This document shows, piece by piece, positions 1,862-49,055 of a stretch of DNA of 52,894 nt (position 1 is its first letter; every line of letters begins with the position of its first letter). The translations under genes were made by a program, and so were the position numbers. The stretch comes from Pseudomonadota bacterium (lineage in GTDB: Bacteria > Desulfobacterota > Desulfobacteria > Desulfobacterales > RPRI01): NCBI GenBank assembly GCA_018817425.1, contig JAHITX010000129.1:1-52894 (forward strand), given 5' to 3'. Below the pieces are notes generated by a model. That model made no database searches, was not told the DNA's origin, and worked only from the letters and a program-made list of their open reading frames with translations.

Positions 1862-3505
1862 ATGACAGAAAAAAAGACATTTAAGGATTTTGGGCTTTCG
1901 GCAAAAGTGCTGGAGGCAATAAATAAAAAAGGGTTTGAAGAGCCAACCCCGATTCAGGTTATGGCTATTCCAATGATGCTAAGAGATGATACGAATATCA
2001 TCGTTCAGGCCCAGACAGGTACAGGCAAAACTGCTGCATTCGGACTGCCTCTTGTAGAAATGGTCAACACTGACTCCGCAGCAGTTCAGGCGCTTATTCT
2101 GGCTCCTACGCGTGAGCTGGCCATTCAGGTAGCGGAAGAAATCAATTCGCTTAAAGGAAACAGGGATATCATAATAACGCCGATATATGGTGGCCAATCT
2201 ATTGATATGCAGTTACAAAGACTGAAAAAAGGTGTGCATATTGTAGTCGGAACTCCGGGCAGGGTGATTGATCATCTTAACAGAAAGACTCTAAAGCTTG
2301 AAAAAATTGAGCATCTTATACTTGATGAAGCGGATGAAATGCTTAATATGGGATTTGTCGAAGATATTGAAGAAATAATGAAGCATACAAATCCGGACAA
2401 AAGAACGCTGTTATTTTCTGCTACAATGCCGGAAAGAATAAAGGCTCTTGCGCACAAATATATGAAGGGTTATGAATTTATTAAAGTTAAAAAAGAGCAA
2501 CTTACAACTAATCTAACCGAGCAGATATATTTTGAGGTAAAAGCCACCGACAAATTTGAGGCGCTATGCAGGATAATTGATATTAAAGATGCTTTTTATG
2601 GTTTGGTTTTTTGCCGGACCAAGATTGATGTTGATTCTGTTGCAACTCATTTAATGGATAGAGGTTATGATGCGGAAGCAATTCATGGAGATATATCACA
2701 GACTCAAAGAGAAAGAACTCTGGAAAAATTTAAGAAAAAAAGAGTCACTATTCTTGTAGCAACAGATGTGGCGGCTCGTGGAATTGATGTTAACAACCTC
2801 ACCCATGTTATAAACTATTCACTGCCTGAAGATACAGAGTCATATGTTCATAGAATAGGGCGTACCGGAAGAGCCGGAAATCTTGGTACCGCTATCACAT
2901 TTATTACTCCCAGTGAATATAAAAGATTGATGTTTATACAACGTGTAGCAAAGACTGATATTAAGAAATCGAAAGTACCTAAGGTTAAAGATATTATCAA
3001 AGCCAAAAAGAAAAAGATTTACGAAGATTTGACTACTATTCTTAAAGAGAAAATAGATGCTGATTATCTAAGCTGGGCTGATAGAATGCTTAAGGACAAT
3101 AATCCCGAAGAGATATTAGCCGCCGTACTTAATTATTGTTTTGAAGAAGAACTCAATCCTGATGTCTATGGTGAAATAGAAGAGATCGGTTCAAAACCAA
3201 AACCGCTTGATAAACATGGTAAGGCAAGGCTTTTTGTTGCACTTGGGAAAAAAGATAAGATTAATGCCGAAAAACTTGTTGAGCTTATCGGAAGCAAAGC
3301 CTCGGTTAAGTCTAAAGATATCAGTGAAATTCAGATAATGGACAAATTCTCTTTCATTACCGTTCCTTTTGAAAAAGCCGAAAAAATTGTTGTTAGCTTT
3401 AGAGAAAAAGGGCGAAAACCACTGATTTCACATGCTAATAAAAATGGACAAAGCGCATTTAAAGTCAGGGGTTCTAATAAAACTAAGTCGCATTCAAAAA
3501 GATAG
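1862..3505 (+). CDS. deaD: DEAD-box ATP-dependent RNA helicase (DeaD/CsdA-like)
   Basis: A 547-residue SF2 RNA helicase with all motifs: a Q-motif (FKDFGLS...PTPIQ) at residues 7-32, motif I AQTGTGKT at 50-57, PTRELAIQ, the DEAD box at 155-158, SAT, and HRIGRTGR near 330. After the helicase core comes a linker and a DbpA-type RNA-binding fold (about 455-535, beginning RLFVALGKKDKIN), typical of DeaD/CsdA proteins that unwind rRNA during ribosome assembly or in the cold. Translation starts at an ATG preceded by a purine-rich AAGAGAAAA. The 5' leader is AT-rich with no clear promoter. The last codons (KSHSKR and stop) lie inside the left terminal repeat of an inserted repeat element at 3485, so the original C-terminus may have been replaced. 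Confidence 0.93.
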   Translation: MTEKKTFKDFGLSAKVLEAINKKGFEEPTPIQVMAIPMMLRDDTNIIVQAQTGTGKTAAFGLPLVEMVNTDSAAVQALILAPTRELAIQVAEEINSLKGNRDIIITPIYGGQSIDMQLQRLKKGVHIVVGTPGRVIDHLNRKTLKLEKIEHLILDEADEMLNMGFVEDIEEIMKHTNPDKRTLLFSATMPERIKALAHKYMKGYEFIKVKKEQLTTNLTEQIYFEVKATDKFEALCRIIDIKDAFYGLVFCRTKIDVDSVATHLMDRGYDAEAIHGDISQTQRERTLEKFKKKRVTILVATDVAARGIDVNNLTHVINYSLPEDTESYVHRIGRTGRAGNLGTAITFITPSEYKRLMFIQRVAKTDIKKSKVPKVKDIIKAKKKKIYEDLTTILKEKIDADYLSWADRMLKDNNPEEILAAVLNYCFEEELNPDVYGEIEEIGSKPKPLDKHGKARLFVALGKKDKINAEKLVELIGSKASVKSKDISEIQIMDKFSFITVPFEKAEKIVVSFREKGRKPLISHANKNGQSAFKVRGSNKTKSHSKR

Positions 3506-3599
3506 CAAGGCGGCAAGGAGGTTTTTCCGCAGGCGTATATGTAATACGCCGGGGACAGAACCTTTGATGCCAACGCAGATAGAATTTGAATAGCGACTT
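3485..3599. repeat. Small inverted-repeat element (divergent member of the window's dispersed family)
   Basis: A segment of about 115 bp bounded by imperfect terminal inverted repeats: AAGTCGCATTCAAAA at the left and the complement of AAGTCGCTATTCAAAT at the right. Inside are CAAGGCGG, a GCGTA...TACGC palindrome and CCAACGCAGA. The same ordered boxes, with different sequence between them, occur in the 142-bp elements at 40400 and 41659. It starts inside the deaD coding end and stops just before the copA stop codon, filling the space between the two convergent genes. There is no room for a transposase, so this is a non-autonomous MITE-like or REP-like element. Confidence 0.6.
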
Positions 3600-10981: not shown

Positions 10982-11776
10982 GTGAATGAAAGACTGGCGA
11001 CATTAGTCTATGATAATCGGGAACAGCAGGTGTGTTGGCAGGGATATGAGCTGCTGGATAATGATGCATTTGACTCCTTCATGACGAAAAATGTAGCCGC
11101 TCGCCTAAATGATGATGAAGGTTCCATCGAATTTCAATCACACTTGCGAAGCCTTTCCTTAACCGGATTTGGAAAATCAAGCCTTGAAGCCGTATTAGAT
11201 GCCGATACCCCGGAAGAACGTGATTGGGCTGTGGGTGAAGCTTTTGCAGAAGCCTGGTTGAGTGACAAACATAAGATCATTTGGCCATGGAATATGGAGA
11301 GAGACAAACGAAATGCAAACGCCAGTCTGCCTGGGGCAGATCTTGTTGGTTTCGTTGTAAATGGCTCTGATACAAGGCTTGTACTGGGTGAAGTGAAGTC
11401 ATCCGGTCAAGATCAATATCCGCCGAATGTTTTGTATGGGCGTAGTGGTATGATTAACCAGATTGACAGATTGGCAGATGATCTCAAAACTATCCGAACA
11501 TTGCTGAGATGGCTTTTCTACCGCTGTAAGAACACAGTTTTTGAAACTTATTACAAAGCATCCGCTATTCTCTATTTTAATTCTGGTAACAAATCAGTGT
11601 CGCTTTTTGGCGTGCTGATTCGCGATACCGAAGCCAATGAGCTTGATTTAAAAAACCGTGGAAAAAATTTAGGCTATTCCCTGAATGCCCCAACCTCCTG
11701 TCATCTACTTGCGTTCTATCTGCCTTGCAAAATTGCGGAACTTCCTGAAAGAGTGAAAGGAGGTGTCGCATCATGA
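10982..11776 (+). CDS. hamA: Hachiman-like HamA nuclease (DUF1837-type), putative
   Basis: A 264-residue protein with a PD-(D/E)xK-like nuclease signature: Asp120 in PGADLVGF, then Glu137 and Lys139 in LGEVKSS. This layout, the length and the downstream helicase match the HamA (DUF1837) effectors of Hachiman and related AbpA/AbpB anti-phage pairs, where helicase sensing of damaged or foreign DNA releases the nuclease. GTG 10982 was chosen as start because GGAG lies 8 bases upstream; the nearby ATG at 10978 stops at once. It overlaps the helicase gene by 4 bp (ATGA), indicating tight coupling. Base composition is more GC-rich than the neighbouring housekeeping genes, consistent with acquisition by transfer. 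Naming as HamA is a family inference without a database search. Confidence 0.6.
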   Translation: MNERLATLVYDNREQQVCWQGYELLDNDAFDSFMTKNVAARLNDDEGSIEFQSHLRSLSLTGFGKSSLEAVLDADTPEERDWAVGEAFAEAWLSDKHKIIWPWNMERDKRNANASLPGADLVGFVVNGSDTRLVLGEVKSSGQDQYPPNVLYGRSGMINQIDRLADDLKTIRTLLRWLFYRCKNTVFETYYKASAILYFNSGNKSVSLFGVLIRDTEANELDLKNRGKNLGYSLNAPTSCHLLAFYLPCKIAELPERVKGGVAS

Positions 11777-14700
11777 ATCACTGGCTGTTAGACAATATCG
11801 GCGCCTCCCGTCTTGAGGCACTGAAACAGGCGGAACGAGTTCTAATTTATCGTGAGTTGCTGCATCATAAAATTGATGTTGACTTTGGACTGATTCAACG
11901 TACGGCAGAAGCTCTAGAACTGGCCACCCTTGATCTGATCCTTGAACGATTTGAAGAAGATGAAGAAAAAAGCAACGCTCTCAAACAGTGTGCTGCGGAT
12001 GCATTCCGACTTTATCGTATTCTCCCAGGAAGTGACAGTCCGATAGCCGATGGCATTCTGTTGTTACGGATGTGTGCGCTTGCCGTTCTTGGTGATATGG
12101 GCGCAGATGCCGCTCGCCTATTGCGTGAAATTGACTGGCCGCAATTATCTGTTGAATCTTCCGATTGGCATGACCGCACTTGGGCGGTAATTCTTGAAAC
12201 ATGGTTGAGGCTAATCCGGAAACAAGGCTGGACTGACCGTGATGCGGTATTGGAAAGCATTGCAGCTTTACGGAACGCCCAGCAGGAATTTGAAGAACAG
12301 TATCTGGAAGAGAGAGGAGGCATAGCTGCCAAGTCCATTGCACTCGAGCTAATTGGGCTGTATCATTTGGCTAAAGCAGCTGAGATTTTTGCACATTTTA
12401 TCACCGATGGTGTGGTTGACGGCAATTACCAAATCCATCAACTGCTGGAAACACATTTCGACCGAGTGTTTGCTGTATGCAAAACAACACAGTTGTTGGA
12501 ACTGGAGCCGTTAACCCGTTTGCTGTCAGCCTGCGCTTCACAGATGGTGGAAAATTCCATTTGGACAGTTACTCGTGCCGTAAACTCACGTGTAACGCAG
12601 TTTGTACGAAGTCTTGTGGATCAAGGTCGAGGCGACCGTGCCATATTTGATGTATTGCCTCCTCAGCGACGTACGCTGGCAGAAAAAGGTTTATTAGGCT
12701 CCAGCCGTCGTGCTGTGGTTGTCAGCCTGCCGACTTCAAGCGGTAAAACTCTGATTGCGCAGTTCAGAATTTTGCAGGCATTAAATCAGTTTGACTACGA
12801 ACAGGGTTGGGTGGCTTATCTTGCCCCGACACGTACTCTGGTCAATCAGATTGCCCGCCAACTGCGTCGTGATTTTGCTCCATTGGATATTCAAGTGGAA
12901 CAGGTCAGTCCTGCACTTGAGGTTGACAGCATCGAAATGGGCCTATTGCAAGAGCATGCTAGGGATCAGGCCTTCCGCGTTTTGGTGACCACTCCCGAGA
13001 AGTTGGATTTAATGTTGCGTCAGGACTGGGAAGAAAAAATTGGCAGACCGTTAACACTAGTAGTTGTTGACGAGGCACATAACATTCAAAATATTCGAAG
13101 AGGGCTAAAGCTTGAACTCCTGCTTTCAACCATAAACAAAGAGTGTCAACGTGCGCAGTTTTTATTGCTTACTCCTTTTATTGATAATGCCCGTGAAGTT
13201 GCCCGTTGGTTGGGTGGTCCAAATTCGGATGATGTAAGCCTTGCTCTTGACTGGCAGCCAAATGACCGTGTCGTTGGTGTTATCCAGGCTGAAAAAGGTA
13301 AGGTTCTGAAAGGACAAAGCTTTGATTACGATTTGAATCTTGAAACTGTTCATACGACCCGAAAAACATTGTCAGTGGATGGTTTGCTTTCATTTCCTAA
13401 ATCAGAGGAAATCGCAAAAACATATAGAGAAGTAACCAATCAGAGCACAATGGCCGCAGTCACGGCCCAACATCTTCAAGAACGCGGTCCGGTAATTGTA
13501 ATGCATACCCGCCCGGACTGGGTATGGTCGTTAGCAGAAAAATTAAAAATAGAGAAAAATATATGTAAAGATATCTCAGAAAATATCAGCCTCGTTCAGG
13601 ATTTTCTGACATTGGAATTTGGCAAAGATTTCCCATTAGTTGAGCTTCTCAATTACGGAATCGGAGTTCACCATGCGGGACTTTCTGATGACGTTCGTTT
13701 CCTTATGGAATGGCTGTTTGAAGAAAATGAACTAAAGTTTCTTGTGGCTACCACCACTATTGCGCAAGGTGTTAATTTTCCGGTTACCGGTGTGGTCATG
13801 GCTTCGCATCAGTATCCGTATGGTGAGGATATGCCTCCTGAGGATTTCTGGAATATTGCCGGTCGAGCAGGTCGTGTCGGTCAAGGAAGTCTCGGGGTTA
13901 TTGCGCTTGTGGCTGACACCAATGTAAAAGCTGAAACACTTAAAAAATTCATTAATAAGCAATCTGGTGATCTAAATTCTGCGTTATTGAAATTAGCAAC
14001 AGAAGCGGGTGATTTTCTGACTGATCTCGGTGGTATTGTTTATAAAATCCCAGAATGGTCGAGTTTTTTACAGTATCTGGCACACACCTATCGCCAGATG
14101 GGCCAACCAGAGACCTTTATTGAGCAGGTTGAACAGGTTTTACGAGGTACACTAGGCTTTGAAAAGCTTCGGGCTCACGATTCAACATTAGCGAATAAAC
14201 TATTAAGTGGCATTCAGACCTACACAGATTATCTGAAGCTCCCGAACCAGCCTCTTAAACTAGTGGATAGCACTGGGTTTTCGTTGCAGAGCATTAAAAC
14301 GGTGTTGAAACATAAGGGGAGTATCGATAGCTCTTCCTGGGATTCAGAGAATCTGTTTGAAACCGGAGGCAACACCCTTGAAGATATGATGGGAGTTCTA
14401 CTTCGTGTTCCTGAACTTAGGGAGAATCTTGAAGCAGCAACAGGTGGCAAATCTCCTGATGGTAACAAACTTGCGCTCATCATAAAAGATTGGGTGAACG
14501 GAAAGTCAATAGCGGATATCGCCAGCCTCCATTTTGACGGGAATATGACCAAATGCGGGCAGAATTTATTTGGGAAGTTAACACAAACTGCCTCTTGGGG
14601 CCTGGGCGCATTATTGTCCATTACCACAGGCGATTTACCGGAGGAACAATATAAACAGCTGAGCAATCTACCTTCCCGAGCGTTTTACGGGGTCAACGAT

Positions 14701-14910
14701 GACTCAGCCATCGTGTTAAGGCTTTTAGGTATTCCAAGAACAGCTGCGATGCTGTTAGCAAACTCAATGAGTGGTATTCTTAACCAACCTTTGCCGCAAG
14801 TTAGAAATGTTCTCAGAAACCTTCCAGATCAACGATGGACTGAGGCGCTTGGAGAAAACGCGATAGTTTACAAAAAGATCTGGCATATACTGGAGGGTAT
14901 TGAAGTATGA
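11773..14910 (+). CDS. hamB: Hachiman-like HamB helicase (Ski2-like SF2), putative
   Basis: A 1045-residue protein. The first 300 residues are helical with no recognised domain. Then come motif I PTSSGKT (320-326), DEAH in VVVDEAHNIQN (433-436), GVHHAGL (about 631-637), a motif V-like TIAQGVNFP and motif VI GRAGRVGQG (from 697). HHAG and GRAGR are typical of the Ski2/Hel308/Brr2 branch of SF2. In Hachiman the helicase partner holds the nuclease in check and scans DNA. Strong GGAGG precedes ATG 11773, which overlaps the stop of the nuclease gene. A C-terminal region of about 300 residues follows the helicase core. A terminator follows. Alternatives are AbpB-type or other two-gene helicase-nuclease defence systems. 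Confidence 0.65.
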   Translation: MNHWLLDNIGASRLEALKQAERVLIYRELLHHKIDVDFGLIQRTAEALELATLDLILERFEEDEEKSNALKQCAADAFRLYRILPGSDSPIADGILLLRMCALAVLGDMGADAARLLREIDWPQLSVESSDWHDRTWAVILETWLRLIRKQGWTDRDAVLESIAALRNAQQEFEEQYLEERGGIAAKSIALELIGLYHLAKAAEIFAHFITDGVVDGNYQIHQLLETHFDRVFAVCKTTQLLELEPLTRLLSACASQMVENSIWTVTRAVNSRVTQFVRSLVDQGRGDRAIFDVLPPQRRTLAEKGLLGSSRRAVVVSLPTSSGKTLIAQFRILQALNQFDYEQGWVAYLAPTRTLVNQIARQLRRDFAPLDIQVEQVSPALEVDSIEMGLLQEHARDQAFRVLVTTPEKLDLMLRQDWEEKIGRPLTLVVVDEAHNIQNIRRGLKLELLLSTINKECQRAQFLLLTPFIDNAREVARWLGGPNSDDVSLALDWQPNDRVVGVIQAEKGKVLKGQSFDYDLNLETVHTTRKTLSVDGLLSFPKSEEIAKTYREVTNQSTMAAVTAQHLQERGPVIVMHTRPDWVWSLAEKLKIEKNICKDISENISLVQDFLTLEFGKDFPLVELLNYGIGVHHAGLSDDVRFLMEWLFEENELKFLVATTTIAQGVNFPVTGVVMASHQYPYGEDMPPEDFWNIAGRAGRVGQGSLGVIALVADTNVKAETLKKFINKQSGDLNSALLKLATEAGDFLTDLGGIVYKIPEWSSFLQYLAHTYRQMGQPETFIEQVEQVLRGTLGFEKLRAHDSTLANKLLSGIQTYTDYLKLPNQPLKLVDSTGFSLQSIKTVLKHKGSIDSSSWDSENLFETGGNTLEDMMGVLLRVPELRENLEAATGGKSPDGNKLALIIKDWVNGKSIADIASLHFDGNMTKCGQNLFGKLTQTASWGLGALLSITTGDLPEEQYKQLSNLPSRAFYGVNDDSAIVLRLLGIPRTAAMLLANSMSGILNQPLPQVRNVLRNLPDQRWTEALGENAIVYKKIWHILEGIEV

Positions 14911-15034
14911 CCTTTAAGATCCAAAACAAAATCCAGCAAGCAAAAAAGAGCCCCAAAAAGGGGGTCCGCTTTTAGCTCTTGTGAGATTAAAAAGACAACA
15001 GTATCTTACCTATTAAAAAATTCGATACGAAACG

Positions 15035-15072
15035 GCGGTTGGAGATTTTTTCTTTAACCGCTTTTATTTTTT
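15035..15072 (+). terminator. Intrinsic terminator after the defence pair
   Basis: GCGGTT and AACCGC form a stem around a 15-base loop followed by TTTTATTTTTT, about 125 bp after the helicase stop. A second, more compact hairpin lies at 14946-14980 (AAGAGC outer stem, CCCC-AAAAA-GGGG inner stem) without a T run. Together they should insulate the caspase cluster from defence-gene transcription. The remaining intergenic bases to 15240 are AT-rich. Confidence 0.6.
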
Positions 15073-15135
15073 GGCGGGAATAGGGCTATTTAAGGGATGC
15101 ATTAAACTATTAAATATATTAAACCGATATACTGA

Positions 15136-15240: not shown

Positions 15241-16569
15241 ATGAAAAAATCTCTGATTTTTGTTTTTATATCTGCTGTGTTTTTTTCGTGTGCCGGTCTC
15301 ACTTTGACCGGATGTATTTCTTCATTGGCGACAGCGGCATACAACGGTAAAACCGAGGCGGTGCGGGAAATGCTGAATGGCAAAAATGTAGATATAAACG
15401 AAATATACGCATGCAGCATGACAAGCCCTACAATGGGTTATACACCTCTGATGTGTGCGGTTGAAAAAGGAAACATAGAAATTGTAAAACTTTTTATAGA
15501 AAACGGTGCTGATGTTAATATAAAAAGCGGCAGAGGCACAGCCCTGCACATCGCGGTAGAGTACGGGTATCCTGACATTGTCCGGCTTTTACTGGATAAA
15601 GGCGCAGAGGTCAGCATAGTTGGAAGTCCGGGGTCGGCAGCGGATTCTCCACAAGGCACCCCATTACAGATAGCAAAAGCTAAAGGGCAGACAGTACTTG
15701 TCCGTATGCTTACCAAAGCCGAAGAAATGCAGTCAACCAAATATGACAAAGATGCATATCCGGTTAAAAGTGAAACGCCGGTATCGGAAACTGTCAAATC
15801 CGATGTTGATGAAATTCCATCCTTAAAAACCGCTACAAATAAAAAGGCTTTTGCAATTGTCATCGGCATTGAAAATTATCGCCAGAATCTTCCCAAAGCA
15901 GACTATGCGTCTCAGGATGCCCGTCTTGTTGCCGACTATCTTATAAAAGCTATGGGCTACCCTGAAGAAAATGTAATTATGCTTTTAAATGACCGGGCAA
16001 CCAATGTTGATCTGGCAAAATACTTTGAGAAATGGTTGCCGAACAATGTTGAAAAAGGCAGTACAGTTTTTGTGTATTATTCCGGACATGGAGCGCCAAA
16101 TCCCAGGACCGGTGATGCCTTTCTTGTGCCCTATGACGGCGATCCGTCTTTTATAAACCAAACAGGATATTCTTTGAAAAGGATGTATGAAGCTTTGGGC
16201 AAACTCCCGGCTAAAGACATTGTCGTTGCCCTGGATTCCTGCTTTTCCGGTGCGGGCGGAAGATCAGTTCTGGCTGAGGGTACGCGGCCACTGGTAATGA
16301 ACCTGCAAAGTTCTTTTGCGGTATCCGGAAATATTAAAATAATGGCCGCTTCTTCCGGCAATCAGATCAGTTCGACCTATAAGGAAAAAGGACACGGCCT
16401 ATTCACCTACTTTCTGCTTAAAGGGATTAAAAATGAAGATGTAATCAAGCCGGATGGTTCAATTGTTGTAGGTGACTTGTATGATTACATCAAACCCCAA
16501 GTGGAACGCATTGCCCGAAAGCAGTATAATAACGAACAGACGCCCCAACTTATCCCATCAGGGGAATAG
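15241..16569 (+). CDS. Caspase-like (C14) lipoprotein 1, ankyrin repeats at N-terminus
   Basis: A 442-residue exported lipoprotein: signal peptide with lipobox LTGC (Cys25), then three to four ankyrin repeats (about residues 32-170; for example GYTPLMCAVEKGNIEIVKLF and GTALHIAVEYG), a linker containing SDVD (187-190) and a caspase-fold peptidase from about 200. His283 (YYSGHG) and Cys334 (LDSCFSG) are the catalytic dyad, 51 residues apart. The lipobox predicts anchoring in the envelope with the protease facing the periplasm or surface. Start ATG 15241 has AAGGG 5-6 bases upstream. It is first of five co-directional genes; the next begins 11 bp later. Substrate and function are unknown; ankyrin repeats suggest a protein-binding partner. 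Confidence 0.9.
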   Translation: MKKSLIFVFISAVFFSCAGLTLTGCISSLATAAYNGKTEAVREMLNGKNVDINEIYACSMTSPTMGYTPLMCAVEKGNIEIVKLFIENGADVNIKSGRGTALHIAVEYGYPDIVRLLLDKGAEVSIVGSPGSAADSPQGTPLQIAKAKGQTVLVRMLTKAEEMQSTKYDKDAYPVKSETPVSETVKSDVDEIPSLKTATNKKAFAIVIGIENYRQNLPKADYASQDARLVADYLIKAMGYPEENVIMLLNDRATNVDLAKYFEKWLPNNVEKGSTVFVYYSGHGAPNPRTGDAFLVPYDGDPSFINQTGYSLKRMYEALGKLPAKDIVVALDSCFSGAGGRSVLAEGTRPLVMNLQSSFAVSGNIKIMAASSGNQISSTYKEKGHGLFTYFLLKGIKNEDVIKPDGSIVVGDLYDYIKPQVERIARKQYNNEQTPQLIPSGE

Positions 16570-16580
16570 GAACTTTTTGA

Positions 16581-18101
16581 ATGTATGATTCAGGAAAAGA
16601 ATATAGAGAGTTACAGGTTTTACATAAAATGATGTGTATTATGAAAAAATGGGGCGGACTTGGTATGTTTTTATTGCTGTTTTTAACTGTGGGATGTGGC
16701 CATTACGACGTCCCTCTGGTAGATGTTACAGCTGCCCCGCCTGAAATTATCCAAAAATTGCCATTGAATGCGGCGATTCTTATAAGCAACGAGATGGAAC
16801 GTTATACATTCACGGGACAAACTCCACCTGCGCAAACATTTACCTTCCCCCTGGGGCAGCTTGTTAAAAATAATATTCTTAATATGCTGTCTCCTGCGTT
16901 TAATAAGGCGATGATAGTAAAAGGCGGGCCTTATCCACAGGATATCGATGTAATCGTCATCCCAAAGGTTGATAAATTCCAGTACTGGTTTGACAATCCC
17001 AGTGTTACAACAGGAAAGATTCTTGCTAAAATATCTATCCAAATTTCTGTTTATGATATGAAAGGAATGCTCGTATGGAAAGGAAGCATAAGTTCGCCTG
17101 TAGTCCCGGAGAAAACATATCCCGCCTATAGTGGTGAGGAATTTTTTAAAGCAACCGGGAGTGTGGCGGCAGAATCAGTCATAGGTGTTTTGGGGGAAGC
17201 CGCTAAAGCAATGACATCTTCACGTGAGATTCATGCCTTTGTTTCTTCAAAAGAAGTACCAGAAACAATTGCTTCAATAACTGCTCCAAAGGAATTTTCC
17301 ATCATCAAATCCGATGTTGATGAGCCGCCGGCCATTTTAATAAAACCGGATAAAAATGCCTATGCTATCGTGATTGGTATTGAACAGTATCGTCAGCAAC
17401 TTCCCAAAGCCGACTTTGCGGCTCATGATGCAAAGATAATATCAGCGTATTTAACAAAGATGATGGGCTATCCGGAAGAAAATGTAATTACACTGATAAA
17501 CGACAGAGCACTGAAAAGCGATATGGAGAAGTATTTCGGTCGCTGGCTGAGTAATAATGTGGAAAAAAACGGCAGAGTGTTTATATACTATTCCGGCCAC
17601 GGCACACCTGATCCCAAAACCGGGGGTGCTTACCTTGTTCCATATGATGGTGATCCCTCTTTTATTGCCGAAACCGGCTATTCTTTAAAACGAATGTATG
17701 ACGCTCTGGGTAAGCTTCCGGCGAAAGAGATCATCGTTGCTCTGGATTCATGCTTTTCCGGCGCAGGCGGCAGGTCAGTGCTTGCCAAGGGAGCTCGTCC
17801 ACTGGTGATGAATCTTCAGAGCGATACGGTTTTGTCAAGAAACATGACGGTTCTATCCGCTTCGGCGGGTGACCAGATCAGCTCCACCTATGATGACAAA
17901 GGCCACGGTCTTTTTACCTACTTCCTATTGAAAGGCGTTAAAGGCGAGGCAGATCTCAATGAAGACGGCAAAATAGAGGTGGAGGAATTATATAGCTACC
18001 TGAAGCCCCAAGTACAGAAAATCGCCCGGAAACTATACAACAACGAGCAATCGCCACAGCTAATTGCGCCGAATAAAAATAAAGAAATCATTATCCGATA
18101 G
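16581..18101 (+). CDS. Caspase-like (C14) lipoprotein 2, novel N-terminal module
   Basis: A 506-residue protein if started at ATG 16581, which has AGGAA 8 bases upstream. A second in-frame ATG at 16641 opens directly into a typical lipoprotein signal (MKKWGG... to LTVGC), so the mature protein probably begins at that Cys whichever start is used. The N-terminal module of about 200 residues is unlike those of its neighbours. It vaguely recalls envelope auxiliary lipoproteins (VYDMKGMLVWKGS region), but I do not recognise the family. SDVD occurs at 244-247, then the caspase domain with His340 and Cys391. Its domain end (KGEADLNEDGKIEVEEL) differs from the other three. Gap to the next gene is 9 bp. 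Confidence 0.88.
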   Translation: MYDSGKEYRELQVLHKMMCIMKKWGGLGMFLLLFLTVGCGHYDVPLVDVTAAPPEIIQKLPLNAAILISNEMERYTFTGQTPPAQTFTFPLGQLVKNNILNMLSPAFNKAMIVKGGPYPQDIDVIVIPKVDKFQYWFDNPSVTTGKILAKISIQISVYDMKGMLVWKGSISSPVVPEKTYPAYSGEEFFKATGSVAAESVIGVLGEAAKAMTSSREIHAFVSSKEVPETIASITAPKEFSIIKSDVDEPPAILIKPDKNAYAIVIGIEQYRQQLPKADFAAHDAKIISAYLTKMMGYPEENVITLINDRALKSDMEKYFGRWLSNNVEKNGRVFIYYSGHGTPDPKTGGAYLVPYDGDPSFIAETGYSLKRMYDALGKLPAKEIIVALDSCFSGAGGRSVLAKGARPLVMNLQSDTVLSRNMTVLSASAGDQISSTYDDKGHGLFTYFLLKGVKGEADLNEDGKIEVEELYSYLKPQVQKIARKLYNNEQSPQLIAPNKNKEIIIR

Positions 18102-18110
18102 GAAACCGCC

Positions 18111-19370
18111 ATGAAAAAAATGATATTTACAGGTATCTTCCTTATACTGATGTCGATGATGCAGGGATGCGGGGCAGGGATCATACATCGGACTACGGAA
18201 AAAGACCTGCAGGCAGTTACGTTTGATGAAACAAAAAATAAAGTGACAAAGATGTTTTTTGAGGGATTTCCTTCAATAGGAGTCTATTATACGAAGGCCT
18301 CTATAAAAATAAACGAGGAAGGATTCCAAGTCACCTCTGAAGACAATACCAGTCGAGCCCTTTGCAGTTTTGAAACAGGCGGGGACCCTGTTGTGACCGA
18401 TTATGGGCCTTTGGCTGCCCTACAGTTCGCAGTGTCGATCAATGGATGCAATGCAGCGGTATGGTTTGACCAAAAAGAATCCGCCGTCATGTTCGCGCAA
18501 TTGTTATACACGCTAAAGCATAAAGCGGCTGAAGTAAAAATTGCACAGAAGCTCCCCGTTACCACTGCCACTTCAGTTGGAGATAATAAAAAGATGATCA
18601 AATCGGATGTCGATATACTTCCTGAAAAAAAATCAACGCCCAACAAGCATGCTTATGCCATCGTCATCGGGATTGAGCGATATCGCCAGCAACTTCCCAA
18701 AGCTGCGTTTGCTGAAAATGATGCCCGGATTGTATCGGCGTATCTTACCCAAGTAATGGGCTATCCGGAAGAGAATGTCGTGACGCTTTTAAATGACAGG
18801 GCGTTAAAAAGTGACATGGAAAAATATTTTGAAAAGTGGCTGAGTAATAACGTTGAAAAAGACGGCACGGTTTTTGTCTATTTCTCCGGCCACGGCGCGC
18901 CAAATCCGCGTACGGGTGATGCTTATCTGGTTCCCTATGACGGCGATCCTTCGTTTATTGATCAGACAGGTTATTCTTTGAAAAATATGTATGAAGCTTT
19001 AGGCAAGCTCCCTGCAAGAAAAATTATCGTTGCTCTGGATTCCTGCTTTTCCGGAGCCGGTGGCCGGTCTGTTCTGGCGGAAGGCGCTCGCCCACTGGTA
19101 ATGAATTTACAGAAATCTTTTAATGTGCACAAAAATATGATGATACTGGCTGCCGCTTCCGGTGATCAGATCAGTTCAACCTATAAGGCCAAAGGCCACG
19201 GCCTTTTTACCTATTTCATGCTCAAGGGAATTAAATATGAAGATGTCATCAATCCGGATGGATCAATTGAGATCACTGACTTGTACAATTACATCAAACC
19301 TCAGGTTGAGCGCATCGCGCGGAAACAATTTAACAATGAACAGACACCACAGTTGATCAGGGGAAAATAA
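18111..19370 (+). CDS. Caspase-like (C14) lipoprotein 3, novel N-terminal module
   Basis: A 419-residue exported lipoprotein with signal peptide ending MMQGC (Cys20). An unassigned module of about 125 residues follows (containing SIGVYYTKASIKINEEGFQV), then SDVD at 165-168 and a caspase domain with His261 (YFSGHG) and Cys312 (LDSCFSG). The dyad spacing of 51 residues is identical to its paralogues. AGGAAA lies 5 bases before ATG 18111. Translation is coupled to the upstream gene by a 9-bp gap. The N-terminal part has an alternating pattern compatible with a beta-sheet fold, but no family was recognised. Its catalytic domain C-terminal half resembles paralogue 1, while its first half resembles paralogue 2. 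Confidence 0.88.
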   Translation: MKKMIFTGIFLILMSMMQGCGAGIIHRTTEKDLQAVTFDETKNKVTKMFFEGFPSIGVYYTKASIKINEEGFQVTSEDNTSRALCSFETGGDPVVTDYGPLAALQFAVSINGCNAAVWFDQKESAVMFAQLLYTLKHKAAEVKIAQKLPVTTATSVGDNKKMIKSDVDILPEKKSTPNKHAYAIVIGIERYRQQLPKAAFAENDARIVSAYLTQVMGYPEENVVTLLNDRALKSDMEKYFEKWLSNNVEKDGTVFVYFSGHGAPNPRTGDAYLVPYDGDPSFIDQTGYSLKNMYEALGKLPARKIIVALDSCFSGAGGRSVLAEGARPLVMNLQKSFNVHKNMMILAAASGDQISSTYKAKGHGLFTYFMLKGIKYEDVINPDGSIEITDLYNYIKPQVERIARKQFNNEQTPQLIRGK

Positions 19371-19388
19371 GGATGAAAAAGTGACTTT

Positions 19389-20705
19389 ATGAAGATCCGA
19401 ACAATAAATATAATGTTTATCATAATTGTAGCAGCATTGATTAATGCCTGCGCTTCCGTCCCGCTGGCTCCGCCGGAAGCGGATACCCAAATAAAGAATA
19501 TGCCACCGCCGCCGGATGAGGCGCTGCTATATGTTTACAGGGACTATCAGTTTGCCGGCTGTGCCGTTATGTTTAATATTTATATTGATGAAAATCGTGT
19601 TGACGGGTCGTTGGGCGTAAATAATTATTTAGTTGTAGCATTAGATCCGGGAGAGCATCGTTTTTCCTATGTCGCTACTCATCTCGCGCCTTCTGAGCTT
19701 CCTTCTTATCTGTCCGAGGGCTTCCTGCCTGTCCATGTCAATCCCGGTAATAAATACTACATCGGGATATCCTCCCAACATGGCCCGACCCGCACAAAGA
19801 TGGTAACCGCGCCCCCTAAAGGTTTTGCTAATTGCAAACTGATTTATAAAAGCCGGCAACCGTCAACAGTGGTGGCTACAAAAAAGAGGGAGGTCCTTTC
19901 TTCGACTGCTGAGCATCAGCAAACGATACGATCGGATGTGGACACCCTTCCAGCAGCAACGCTACGAATAAATAAAAATGCTTATGCAATCGTAATCGGC
20001 ATTGAACAATACCGTCAAAAACTCCCCAGTGCAGACTATGCCGTAAGCGACGCAATGCTCGTAAGTGAATATCTCACCAAAGTCATGGGCTATCTGGAAG
20101 AAAATGTTATTCTGCTCCAGAACGAATATGCAACCAACGTTGATTTTGTCAAATATTTCGAAAAGTGGTTGCCCAACAACGTAGAACCGGGCGGCACGGT
20201 CTTTGTTTACTTTTCGGGGCACGGTGCCCCAAATCCCAAGACGGGTGACGCCTATCTGGTCCCGTATGACGGCGACCCTTCTTTTATCGCCCAAACGGGA
20301 TACTCATTAAAAAGGATGTACGCCGCCCTGGGCAAACTTCAGGCCAAAGAAATCGTTGTCGCCCTGGATTCATGCTTTTCCGGGGCTGGCGGCAGGTCGG
20401 TGCTTGCCAAGGGGGCTCGCCCGCTGGTGATGAATCTTCAGAGCAATACGGTTCTGTCAAAAAACATGACGGTTCTTTCCGCTTCGGCAGGTGACCAGAT
20501 CAGTTCAACTTATGATGACAAAGGCCACGGGCTTTTTACCTACTTTCTGCTCAAAGGGATTAAAAATGAGGATGTCGTCAATCCGGATGGTTCCATTAAA
20601 ATGGACGACCTATTCGGCTACCTCGCACCCCAGGTGGAGCGCATCGCCCGCAAGCAGTACAATAATGAACAGATGCCGCAGTTGATTGACGCGAAAAAGA
20701 ATTAG
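19389..20705 (+). CDS. Caspase-like (C14) lipoprotein 4, DUF2846-like N-terminus
   Basis: A 438-residue lipoprotein with lipobox LINAC (Cys21). Residues 45-150 (ALLYVYRDYQFAGCAVMF, VDGSLGVNNYL, LDPGEHRFSY) match the DUF2846-type small lipoprotein beta fold. SDVD is at 182-185, followed by the caspase domain with His278 and Cys329. The gene is 18 bp after its predecessor. The C-terminal half is nearly the same as paralogue 2 from LAKGARPLVMN to STYDDKGHGLF, then switches to the KNEDV type of paralogues 1 and 3. Such switching suggests gene conversion. Role unknown; likely shares substrates or partners with the other three. Confidence 0.88.
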   Translation: MKIRTINIMFIIIVAALINACASVPLAPPEADTQIKNMPPPPDEALLYVYRDYQFAGCAVMFNIYIDENRVDGSLGVNNYLVVALDPGEHRFSYVATHLAPSELPSYLSEGFLPVHVNPGNKYYIGISSQHGPTRTKMVTAPPKGFANCKLIYKSRQPSTVVATKKREVLSSTAEHQQTIRSDVDTLPAATLRINKNAYAIVIGIEQYRQKLPSADYAVSDAMLVSEYLTKVMGYLEENVILLQNEYATNVDFVKYFEKWLPNNVEPGGTVFVYFSGHGAPNPKTGDAYLVPYDGDPSFIAQTGYSLKRMYAALGKLQAKEIVVALDSCFSGAGGRSVLAKGARPLVMNLQSNTVLSKNMTVLSASAGDQISSTYDDKGHGLFTYFLLKGIKNEDVVNPDGSIKMDDLFGYLAPQVERIARKQYNNEQMPQLIDAKKN

Positions 20706-20745
20706 GGGCCAATTACTTTTTAGAAAAATCCATCAGGAGGAAGGC

Positions 20746-21567
20746 TTGAAAAATATATCTTTATACGTTTTCATTTTTTTAATGCTTGTAGCGCATGCGG
20801 CATTTGCTGCTGAAAGCCCCTTATGGATTGAAGCGGAAGGCGAGGCGTATCTCGGTATTTACGACACACCCAAAGAGATTATAGAAAGAGCGAAACGGGA
20901 CGCGCAGAGCAAGGCCATAGAACAGGGTGTCGGTGTTTTTATAAAGTCGCACACACTTGTTTCAAACAGTCAGCTTGTGGATGACCTGATCTTTGCGGCG
21001 GTCCGGGGTAGTATTGAAAAAGTAGATATTATTAAAGAAGGCTGGGATGAAAACGACAGGAATCTATACAAAGTAAAATTGAAAGCGTTGATAAAGCCGG
21101 TTTATCCTGAAAAAGGCGAAGGGCTTTGGGCCAAGCTCCATCTTTCCAAAACAGATTTAAAAGAAGGAGATGAAGTTCAGATTTTCTATCAGGTAAGCAA
21201 AGATAGCTATGTCTATATTTTTTCGATTGCTGCCGATGGTTCTGTAACACTTCTTTTCCCCAATTCCAGCACACCGGAAAATTTTATCATGGCAGGAAAA
21301 CCATACCAGTTTCCACCGGCAGATAGTGGCATACATTTAAAGGCTATGTTTTTGCCAGACTTTAAAGATGTTTTGGCGGAAGAAAGAATAAAAATTATTG
21401 CAACCCGACACAAAGAAGGCTTACTTTCACTCGGCTTCCGGGAAGGTATCTTTCAGGTTTATGATGCAAAATCAACAGGCATGATAAGCGATCTTGTGCG
21501 ACGCCTCAACCAGATAGAACCGACAGACTGGACGGAAACTACGGCAATTTATTATTTAAGAAAATAA
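20746..21567 (+). CDS. Exported DUF4384-domain protein closing the caspase operon
   Basis: A 273-residue protein starting at TTG 20746, chosen because AGGAGGAAGGC lies directly before it and because a clean signal peptide (ending AHAAFA|AES) begins there; longer readings from 20686 add an unlikely N-terminal tail. After the signal comes a region resembling the LPP20/FlgT-N fold (AEGEAYLGIYDTPKEIIERA ... KVKLKALIKP), then DUF4384 (LSKTDLKEGDEVQIFYQVS, YVYIFSIAADGSVTLLFPN). DUF4384 is frequently found beside or fused to bacterial caspases, so this may be a partner or envelope sensor of the four proteases. It is 40 bp behind the last caspase gene. No catalytic motif was seen. Confidence 0.82.
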   Translation: MKNISLYVFIFLMLVAHAAFAAESPLWIEAEGEAYLGIYDTPKEIIERAKRDAQSKAIEQGVGVFIKSHTLVSNSQLVDDLIFAAVRGSIEKVDIIKEGWDENDRNLYKVKLKALIKPVYPEKGEGLWAKLHLSKTDLKEGDEVQIFYQVSKDSYVYIFSIAADGSVTLLFPNSSTPENFIMAGKPYQFPPADSGIHLKAMFLPDFKDVLAEERIKIIATRHKEGLLSLGFREGIFQVYDAKSTGMISDLVRRLNQIEPTDWTETTAIYYLRK

Positions 21568-32864: not shown

Positions 32865-32990
32865 AGGAATACATTAAGTATTTCGAGGATAGCGCTAAAG
32901 GTAAGCGCTATGCTTCACTACGTGTCACTTCGTGCGAAATTTGAGTCTAACACAGAGATCGGCCAAAATGGGGCGTTTTGAAACTGGCTC
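32865..32990 (+). repeat. Partial 142-bp-family element with a 45-bp insertion
   Basis: Right half of the element described at 40400: AGGAATACATTAAGTATTTC, then GAGGAT, an unrelated insert of about 45 bp (AGCGCTAAAGGTAAGCGCT hairpin and more), then GAAATTTGAGTCTAACACAG and the conserved right end GGGGCGTTTTGAAACTGGCTC region. The left terminal repeat is missing or degraded. Confidence 0.8.
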
Positions 32991-40393: not shown

Positions 40394-40399
40394 TCATTG

Positions 40400-40541
40400 G
40401 AGCCACTTTCAAAACGTTTCAGTTTGGTCAAGCTCAAGGCGGGAGAAAATTTCAACCACAGGAATACATTAAGTATTTCGAGGATTGAAATTTGAGCCTA
40501 ACGCAGAGATCGGCCAAAATGGGGCGTTTTGAAACTGGCTC
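40400..40541 (+). repeat. 142-bp inverted-repeat element, copy B
   Basis: Begins GAGCCACTTTCAAAACG and ends with the complement of GAGCCAGTTTCAAAACG, giving 17-bp terminal inverted repeats with one mismatch. The core holds CAAGGCGGGAGAAAATTTC, the palindrome GAATACATTAAGTATTTC and CCTAACGCAGAGATC. Identical to copy C (41659) at 139 of 142 positions when that copy is complemented. Non-coding and MITE-like. Confidence 0.92.
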
Positions 40542-40840: not shown

Positions 40841-41659
40841 ATGAATACAGTAAGTGGTATATGCCAGTCTCAATTTTACGCGGTGAAAAGTTACGGGTCG
40901 GCTGCGCGTGCAAAGACATCAGTTGTACCGGTTGGAGAGGTGCCGACTACAGGTGATGCTGTTGAGATTTCAACTAAAGCTCAAAAAGCCCAGACATTGG
41001 ACGCAGCCTTGCAGCGGTCGGAAGAGCTTATGAGCGTTCGCGGTCTTGATGACAAAGAGATAGCTTCCTTTCGTGAGATCCTGTCATCTTATGAATCGTC
41101 CGGGATGAATGCAGCCGAGTTTCTTAAGTCGCTGTCAGGCGAGGAACGTAATTTGGTCAAGCGGGCTAACAGCTATGGCAGTAATCTAACGGATAATGTA
41201 ATAGGTAGCTTTTCGGAGGAAGGTGCCATTAACATGTTGCGAGAGCAGGATTATCGTTTTGCCGTTGATTTGAACGGGGACGATATCGTAGAGCATGGTG
41301 CCGGCAGAACCTTTGTTTTTCCGCCGCCCAATACGCCTGAAACGGTTATGGACGCCTGGGATACATATAGCCGTTCTCTGACCGGAGCGGAAGAAAGTCT
41401 TTTCAGTGCCCTTTTTCTCCCGATTGATGTTCCGGGATACCCGGATGCTACGACCATCAGGGGTTACAACATAAGCCAGCAAGGGTTTCCCCCAAATGAG
41501 GAAGGCTGGCTGGATCTTTTGGATAAGATCTATGATACTCTGGAATATAACAACAAAATAAGCAACGAGCAGCAAACCATCGAGCATAATAAAAAGGCTA
41601 TGCAGCAGCTTCGGGATTTTGCGGCCACTATTGAGCAGATGAAAATCCAATCAATATAG
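40841..41659 (+). CDS. Protein of unknown function, sigma-54 promoted, boxed by inverted repeats
   Basis: A 272-residue soluble protein without signal peptide or membrane segment. Residues 35-50 (PTTGDAVEISTKAQKAQ) resemble the D.VeiS.kA motif common near the N-termini of flagellum-associated proteins such as FlgM, the only functional hint. The middle is acidic and helical, with a possible metal-binding VDLNGDDIVEHG at about 143-154. The C-terminus is a predicted coiled coil. AAGGAG lies 10 bases before ATG. The TAG stop shares its last base with repeat copy C, and copy B lies 300 bp upstream in the opposite orientation. I do not recognise a family; motility or surface function is speculative. 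Confidence 0.75.
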   Translation: MNTVSGICQSQFYAVKSYGSAARAKTSVVPVGEVPTTGDAVEISTKAQKAQTLDAALQRSEELMSVRGLDDKEIASFREILSSYESSGMNAAEFLKSLSGEERNLVKRANSYGSNLTDNVIGSFSEEGAINMLREQDYRFAVDLNGDDIVEHGAGRTFVFPPPNTPETVMDAWDTYSRSLTGAEESLFSALFLPIDVPGYPDATTIRGYNISQQGFPPNEEGWLDLLDKIYDTLEYNNKISNEQQTIEHNKKAMQQLRDFAATIEQMKIQSI

Positions 41660-41800
41660 AGCCAGTTTCAAAACGCCCCATTTTGGCCGATCTCTGCGTT
41701 AGGCTCAAATTTCAATCCTCGAAATACTCAATGTATTCCTGCGGTTGAAATTTTCGCCCGCCTTGAGCTTGACCAAACTGAAACGTTTTGAAAGTGGCTC
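41659..41800 (-). repeat. 142-bp inverted-repeat element, copy C (opposite orientation)
   Basis: Reverse complement of copy B with three substitutions. Its first base is the last base of the upstream gene's TAG stop. With copy B it forms a pair of inverted repeats enclosing 1117 bp. Confidence 0.92.
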
Positions 41801-41877
41801 TATAATCTCAAATTATTCCTTGGAGTATTTGCTTCCCTGTTGTACTTTCATGATATTGTGCAACAAAAACGCAATGG

Positions 41878-48960: not shown

Positions 48961-49055
48961 AAATTTCAACCAAAGGAATACATTAAGTATTTCGAGGATT
49001 AATCTTTGAGCCCAATGCAGAGATCTGCGAAAATGGGGCGTTTTGAAACTGGCTC
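48961..49055 (+). repeat. 142-bp-family element, partial copy D
   Basis: AAATTTCAACCAAAGGAATA, then CATTAAGTATTTCGAGGATT, CCCAATGCAGAGATCTG and the right end GGGGCGTTTTGAAACTGGCTC region. The left third and left terminal repeat are unrecognisable. It sits in the divergent gap between sdhC and the sensor-kinase gene. No gene or other signal was seen in the rest of 48714-49297. Confidence 0.8.

Follow-up and report, generated by a model that had tools for sequence, protein, structure and literature searches.

A 52,894-nt stretch of DNA (the window; contig JAHITX010000129.1, assembly GCA_018817425.1) carries on its forward strand a tandem cluster of four caspase-like genes (g1 to g4, 15241-20705), which is followed by a gene for a DUF4384 protein (g5). 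Comparison with relatives suggests that the N-terminal modules of these proteins and their catalytic domains have repeatedly been exchanged by recombination, most of the breaks lying within the first third of the latter. Our preferred, still tentative reading, to which we give slightly less than an even chance, is that the cluster represents the local state of a recombining repertoire of envelope-lipoprotein proteases with exchangeable sensors. The anatomy of the cluster, the conservation of the catalytic dyad and of the acidic S1 residues, the recurrence of such arrays, frequently followed by a DUF4384 gene, and the sequence evidence of exchange are established.

The tandem arrangement put forward in the original prediction was confirmed, coordinates included, by the open reading frames and the Pfam scores. 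According to the open reading frame list the four caspase genes are separated by gaps of 11, 9 and 18 bp. The gene g1 (15241-16569) encodes a lipobox-like signal, an ankyrin module and a caspase domain beginning with an SDVD motif (15799-15810), with the catalytic residues His283 and Cys334. The same layout is found in g2 (16581-18101; module M2, domain from 17310, His340 and Cys391; an internal ATG at 16641 is a possible alternative start), g3 (18111-19370; module M3, domain from 18603, His261 and Cys312) and g4 (19389-20705; DUF2846-like module, domain from 19932, His278 and Cys329). All four exceed the cut-off of the Pfam family Peptidase_C14 (PF00656; 48.9-59.4 bits versus 21.4) and are the only C14 matches in the genome (5.1 Mb, 99% complete), in which two DUF4384 matches occur. 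The open reading frame of g5 opens at 20686, but a start at the TTG codon at 20746 with AGGAGG in front of it is more likely, which leaves 40 bp between g4 and g5 (20746-21567). The protein has a hydrophobic N-terminus and clearly reaches the DUF4384 cut-off (PF14326; 73.7 bits versus 27).

The shared part of the four caspases opens at the SDVD motif, which in each of them precedes the catalytic His by exactly 96 residues, a feature that goes beyond the earlier observations. From there on the catalytic parts share 68-77% protein identity, whereas the N-terminal modules are only 17-27% identical to each other; this contrast goes beyond chance and bears out the claim that different modules sit on the same caspase domain. 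By eye, each caspase starts with a run of hydrophobic residues that closes with a lipobox-like motif (LTGC, TVGC, MQGC and INAC), and a home-made rule finds such a pattern in 95 of 128 N-terminal modules of the family. Judged from these sequences, g1 to g4 are probably exported, lipid-anchored envelope lipoproteins. We also considered an integron cassette array. Given the size of attC sites, the gaps of only 9-18 bp in the window leave no room for them.

Conservation and ancestry of the catalytic domain were analyzed with 108 domains (at least 200 amino acids and more than 230 bits each, window genes included) after removal of the near-duplicate loci L114, L116, L117, L129 and L073. The His-Cys dyad is invariant in all 108 rows, the four window genes among them, and the same is true for two acidic S1 positions aligned with Asp95 and Asp211 of TbMCA2. 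The column of Asp95 was set by alignment to yeast-type metacaspases and Asp211 was placed two residues before the Cys, a numbering which we take to be that of the trypanosome enzyme. The distance of 51 residues between His and Cys, singled out in the original prediction, is indeed present in g1 to g4, but as 105 of the 108 domains share it, it is a trait of the family and not peculiar to the window. SDVD is present in 54 of 75 close rows. Foldseek searches with the g3 and g2 models gave MALT1 and metacaspases as best matches, and the g2 model aligns to Arabidopsis metacaspase 4 over 222 residues (Z score 24.0, root-mean-square deviation 2.9). Passages of two publications describe both aspartates of TbMCA2, one locating them in a potential S1 pocket that accommodates basic residues (PMC4357240), the other terming them highly important for basic substrate residues (PMC6426788). 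As the dyad and the S1 acids are invariant, the family is predicted to be enzymatically active, and residues and fold let us expect cleavage after Arg or Lys, as in metacaspases, and not after Asp. A caspase of the C14A type, with a basic S1 pocket and cleavage after Asp, does not agree with the invariant acidic positions in the alignment. We also dropped the idea that SDVD is a caspase-like self-cleavage site with Asp at P1, because the invariant S1 acids predict a basic P1 residue; the models show this region with fair confidence, the ten-residue means being 80 or more for g3 and 81 or more for g2. Near the C-terminus of g2 (17946-18005, residues 456-475) there is an EF-hand-like loop, DLNEDGKIEVEE, which scores 17 bits against a Pfam cut-off of 25.9 and could hint at calcium dependence.

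The N-terminal modules are of very different kinds. That of g1 is assigned to ankyrin by Pfam, and that of g4 stays slightly below the cut-off for DUF2846 (PF11008; 30.4 bits for the whole protein and 32.8 bits for the module alone versus 34.3), while the homologous modules in L035 and L015 pass it with 48.2 and 43.3 bits. The modules of g2 and g3 have no Pfam match at E<=10. M2 is confidently modelled as a mixed alpha/beta structure; M3, found outside the window at one other locus only (L112), is modelled with low confidence from an alignment of two sequences as strands followed by a helix. The fold-search rows shown for the g2 model are filled by the caspase domain and none of them speaks to the fold of the module, and consequently we do not claim a new fold for M2. 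From secondary structure and sequence, the g3 module may resemble PH domains and the g2 module YajG/LptE. A Pfam scan of 127 of the 128 N-terminal modules (L073 omitted) matched 103 families, and among the best 25 listed are ankyrin (59 modules), PDZ (9), TPR (6), CARDB (4), S41 (3), DUF2846 (3) and WD40 (2).

Some further observations concern the N-terminal parts. A near-constant signal peptide (NLISLISVIFILLVGMAMTGC-like) stands ahead of unlike modules in different phyla (L034 at 7269, L044 at 342, L043 at 3474, L041 at 9627 and L012 at 13213), and in L027 (at 5992) a closely similar leader stands on a protein that by eye resembles thioredoxin. In L033 a stand-alone M2-like protein (2873-3562) overlaps the start of a caspase gene, as though module and protease had been split. 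Immediately upstream of three more distant caspases (L123 at 5499, L124 at 5642 and L128 at 7248) lie proteins that are related to each other and have an N-terminus resembling a signal.

All four window genes show signs of exchange at the DNA level. The corresponding locus of a sister genome, covered by contigs L074 and L017 and matching the window on both flanks, shows a single caspase gene with a DUF4384 gene right behind it, and this caspase is a hybrid of g1 and g4. At the 223 sites where g1 and g4 differ, it is g1-like at 107, g4-like at 4 and like neither at 1 before the break, and g1-like at 17, g4-like at 81 and like neither at 13 after it. None of 5000 permutations was as extreme. The switch corresponds to 16176 in g1 and 20309 in g4, between the codons of His and Cys. 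Within the window a 154-nt tract shared by g2 (17768-17921) and g4 (20390-20543) is probably the product of gene conversion, with 92% identity inside and 66% outside (segment-score test, 0 of 5000 permutations as high); the corresponding result for g1 and g4 (p 0.024) is lost after correction for six comparisons. The gene g3 and its homologue in L112 are 90% identical through the module and 240 nt of the domain and 72% identical thereafter; past that point g3 is most similar to g1 of the same array (77.5%), and the rest of the L112 gene comes closest, with a narrow lead, to L017 and g4 (about 80-81%). A break of the same kind separates g2 and L040 (from 76% to 67%, p 0.0025).

Hybrids and breakpoints of this kind could in principle be assembly artefacts of tandem repeats in metagenomes. 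Most relatives are, judged by their titles, metagenome assemblies, and an exact overlap of 141 nt joins two contigs at the sister gene, which leaves the caspase copy number in the sister genome uncertain. However, this junction is upstream of the break, the switch from g1 to g4 lies inside one contig, and g1 and g4 of the window, about 70-80% alike, are too different to be joined through a long shared word. The g2/g4 tract is also contained within one contig and breaks recur across separate assemblies, and we therefore consider an artefact very improbable.

Genuine exchange is also suggested by the family as a whole. Counting only matches in other loci that cover at least half of the module, 52 genes have a module match by DNA, and 38 of them pair best with one gene by module and with another by catalytic domain; at least four of the 38 are uninformative (two from the co-linear trio L012, L016 and L019, and g2 and g4, whose best catalytic partner L017 has its module on another contig). 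For example, L016_10181 shares a 95% identical module with L012_10981, but the catalytic domains of the two are only 72% identical, while that of L016_10181 is 91% identical to L012_13213. In 16 of 28 module-matched pairs the identity of the catalytic DNA is lower than that of the module by 5 points or more, a comparison in which the selection for module similarity biases toward lower catalytic identity and BLAST identity of the module is set against global identity of the domain. Conversely, among 54 pairs with at least 80% catalytic DNA identity, 23 have modules without detectable similarity, although 10 of these involve L018 or L027_6353 with very short N-terminal parts (53-56 amino acids). 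Abrupt breaks of identity were found in all of seven hand-picked pairs and in none of four co-linear pairs, and they are positioned 72-254 nt after the SDVD codon in six of the seven and 57 nt before it in one. In an eighth pair outside this break test (L041/L043) identity drops 60-90 nt before SDVD.

In the domain tree the three DUF2846 and four M2 modules are found on separate branches, and the starred branches force at least two changes for each, although L068 (M2) and L035_4629 (DUF2846) form long branches whose placement is unsure. The tree also places each window gene near different relatives, which disagrees with a recent origin of all four by duplication in place, with the reservation that 46 of the 105 inner branches have a support under 80. 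Taken with the breakpoints, this decoupled ancestry supports, at the evolutionary level, the proposal that one scaffold carries interchangeable modules.

A scan of GTDB genome contigs yielded 69 loci, by their titles mostly from Deltaproteobacteria/Thermodesulfobacteriota, Nitrospirota and Nitrospinota. The distribution is patchy within genus and class: at 1e-20 the genus has matches in 4 of 10 genomes (own genome included; one of them, G001, has a distant match only), and at 1e-30 the class has them in 39 of 291 (own genome included), 8 of which have a match at 1e-110 or better. Including the window and additional genome regions, we arrived at 56 arrays, each with one or more close caspases, and contig ends may have shortened some of these arrays; 31 hold a single gene, 14 two, 6 three, 3 four and 2 six. 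The expectation that C14 proteases accompany DUF4384 mostly as single genes did not hold, as 25 of the 56 arrays contain two to six caspase genes and operons with several metacaspases were already published in 2012, as the operon passages of PMC3501461 report. Of the 52 arrays with sufficient DNA, 29 have a DUF4384-type gene within 1 kb downstream; for multi-gene arrays the count is 17 of 24. The exact five-gene order of the window was not seen in any other array, and with regard to conserved gene order it is thus the general architecture of n caspases followed by DUF4384 that recurs among relatives.

The main rival is ordinary housekeeping of the envelope, in which lipoprotein proteases process or turn over surface proteins, the modules pick the substrates and unequal crossing-over lengthens or shortens the arrays without selection for diversity. 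Lipobox, intact dyad and binding modules would serve this purpose equally well, and arrays of one to six genes as well as hybrid genes are the expected products of neutral unequal crossing-over. Furthermore, PDZ and S41, present in 9 and 3 of the 127 modules, are families known from protein quality control. The patchy presence within the genus fits poorly, and so do near-identical modules of different loci carried on dissimilar catalytic domains, and we regard this explanation as rather unlikely.

Directly upstream of the array (10982-14910) PADLOC reports the candidate defence pair PDC-M23A and PDC-M23B with a HamB-like helicase. A terminator-like hairpin, found by pattern match, is located between the PDC-M23B gene and the array (15034-15062), although such patterns are equally frequent in shuffles. 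The similarity between window and sister genome begins at 15105, preceded by a short matching piece from 14976, and the 7.4 kb of sister flank examined do not contain the pair. Because of the intervening terminator-like pattern and this absence, the pair is not counted into the caspase system. The same findings bear on the possibility that the caspases are executioners of programmed death or abortive infection, which kill the cell from the periplasm once a module senses attack and are tied to this Hachiman-like pair. The direct vicinity of the two genes and the discussion of bacterial C14 proteins in cell-death terms, as in parts of PMC3501461, would be in line with such a role. However, the caspases look exported and the upstream helicase looks cytoplasmic, and together with the hairpin and the limited extent of the sister similarity this makes the executioner model improbable.

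In related arrays the gaps between caspase or DUF4384 genes are often filled by toxin-antitoxin-type genes on the same strand (YafQ, PIN with ribbon-helix-helix, nucleotidyltransferase with HEPN). Ten gap proteins were compared with Pfam, of which seven are of toxin-antitoxin type (YafQ, PIN, ribbon-helix-helix, nucleotidyltransferases, HEPN and DUF3368) and three have no match. Pfam-assigned genes are located in L063 (1676-2178), L029 (2853-3508), L012 (10320-10814 and 12472-13226) and L041 (11266-11990), and others were recognized by likeness in L043 (1488-1983), L045 (6802-7469) and L049 (2097-2845). Among upstream neighbours, PIN occurs in 6 of 50 cases, which include related loci, versus at most 2 of 110 controls drawn randomly from 125 (the 128 minus three of more than 800 amino acids); Fisher's test gives p 0.012 at 2/110, this bound being the last row of a list ordered by members (best 25 of 51 and 25 of 205 families). 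This tally is fairer than a count of all toxin-antitoxin-type upstream neighbours (13 of 50 versus 0 of 110), in which the seeds were taken from the case set and are biased toward it. Such genes raise the possibility of a mobile cluster stabilized by addiction, in which toxin-antitoxin pairs keep the arrays and the role of the protease is arbitrary. We give little credence to it, as no such gene is present in the window array and none was noticed in the sister flanks, read as open reading frames only. With regard to mobility, there were no matches in 50,697 phage records at 1e-10, none of the 27 viral contig stretches fitting the pattern was confirmed and the only plasmid match is distant (28.6% identity). 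A dispersed repeat of about 50-170 bp is found in the window at 40397-40541, 41659-41802, 32867-32990 and 49005-49054, and copies lie next to the array in L074 and L017 of the sister genome as well.

Several findings weigh against the recombining sensor repertoire that we prefer. The longest exact-run test for gene conversion is not significant for any of the six window pairs, and neither is a PHI-type test over the whole domain with 70 rows (43 of 500 permutations). In 10 of the 28 module-matched pairs catalytic identity is at or above module identity, and module DNA identities of 84-99% between loci show swapping, not adaptive diversification. In 23 of the 52 arrays the downstream DNA showed no DUF4384-type gene. 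Metagenome assembly, from which nearly all relatives come, can join tandem paralogues wrongly. The associations with toxin-antitoxin and defence genes are indirect, and the window array itself lacks the former.

Under the repertoire model, each protein would be a metacaspase-like cysteine protease with an N-terminal lipid tether and one of many unrelated N-terminal binding modules. The protease would cut after Arg or Lys, the module would sense or capture a target and thereby steer the protease to it, and the DUF4384 protein may be a shared partner of the caspases. Module diversity would be favoured, and not neutral, as targets such as phage, toxins or competitors vary. For these steps support falls from lipid anchoring over protease activity, module-directed targeting and a shared role of DUF4384 to selection for varied targets. 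A role in defence or competition, as originally proposed, would fit the toxin-antitoxin-type upstream neighbours in relatives and the candidate defence pair of the window but is an indirect inference, and for the surface proteolytic cascade suggested along with it no support emerged.

The four proteins share with bacterial metacaspases and orthocaspases (PF00656, C14) the domain, the dyad, the two acidic S1 residues and the metacaspase/paracaspase fold, but they differ in being probable exported lipoproteins with swappable N-terminal modules in recombining arrays. Their top NCBIfam match is NF047832 (caspase_w_EACC1) with 79.2-90.5 bits, which falls short of the cut-off of 140 bits; no EACC1 model was among the matches of the ten genes scanned, and no search by this name was made. 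According to its passages on operons, PMC3501461 reported 20 multi-metacaspase operons with a maximum of three genes, in Desulfococcus oleovorans Hxd3, and proposed horizontal transfer for the scattered distribution of metacaspases. The window with its four genes and relatives with up to six likewise combine several C14 genes per operon but exceed this number. The word ankyrin is absent from the main text of that paper and module exchange is not described in its passages on operons. No description of module exchange in such caspase arrays was found in the literature by title and start of abstract, a coverage outside of which most subscription journals fall. Polymorphic toxin systems, as outlined in parts of PMC3482391, also join a constant part and changing modules by recombination, but here the polarity is reversed, with a constant C-terminal enzyme and variable N-terminal modules.

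Bacterial caspase homologues are usually treated one protein at a time and in cell-death terms. Here, C14 homologues appear as probable envelope lipoproteins in arrays that keep the enzyme and swap the recognition parts, an evolutionary mode otherwise known from conflict systems. Multi-caspase operons as such are already known, and the new aspect is the exchange of modules within the arrays, which is an unusual evolutionary mode. It is possible, if more doubtful than the recombining repertoire as such, that these arrays form an envelope surveillance repertoire, in which sensors (ankyrin, PDZ, TPR, DUF2846 and unassigned modules) are swapped between arrays and across phyla at the SDVD end, so that every genome would have a sensor set of its own, with one proteolytic output and a shared DUF4384 partner. 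If this is true, one protease would be sent to different proteins, and the specificity for a substrate or challenge would follow the module and not the catalytic domain.

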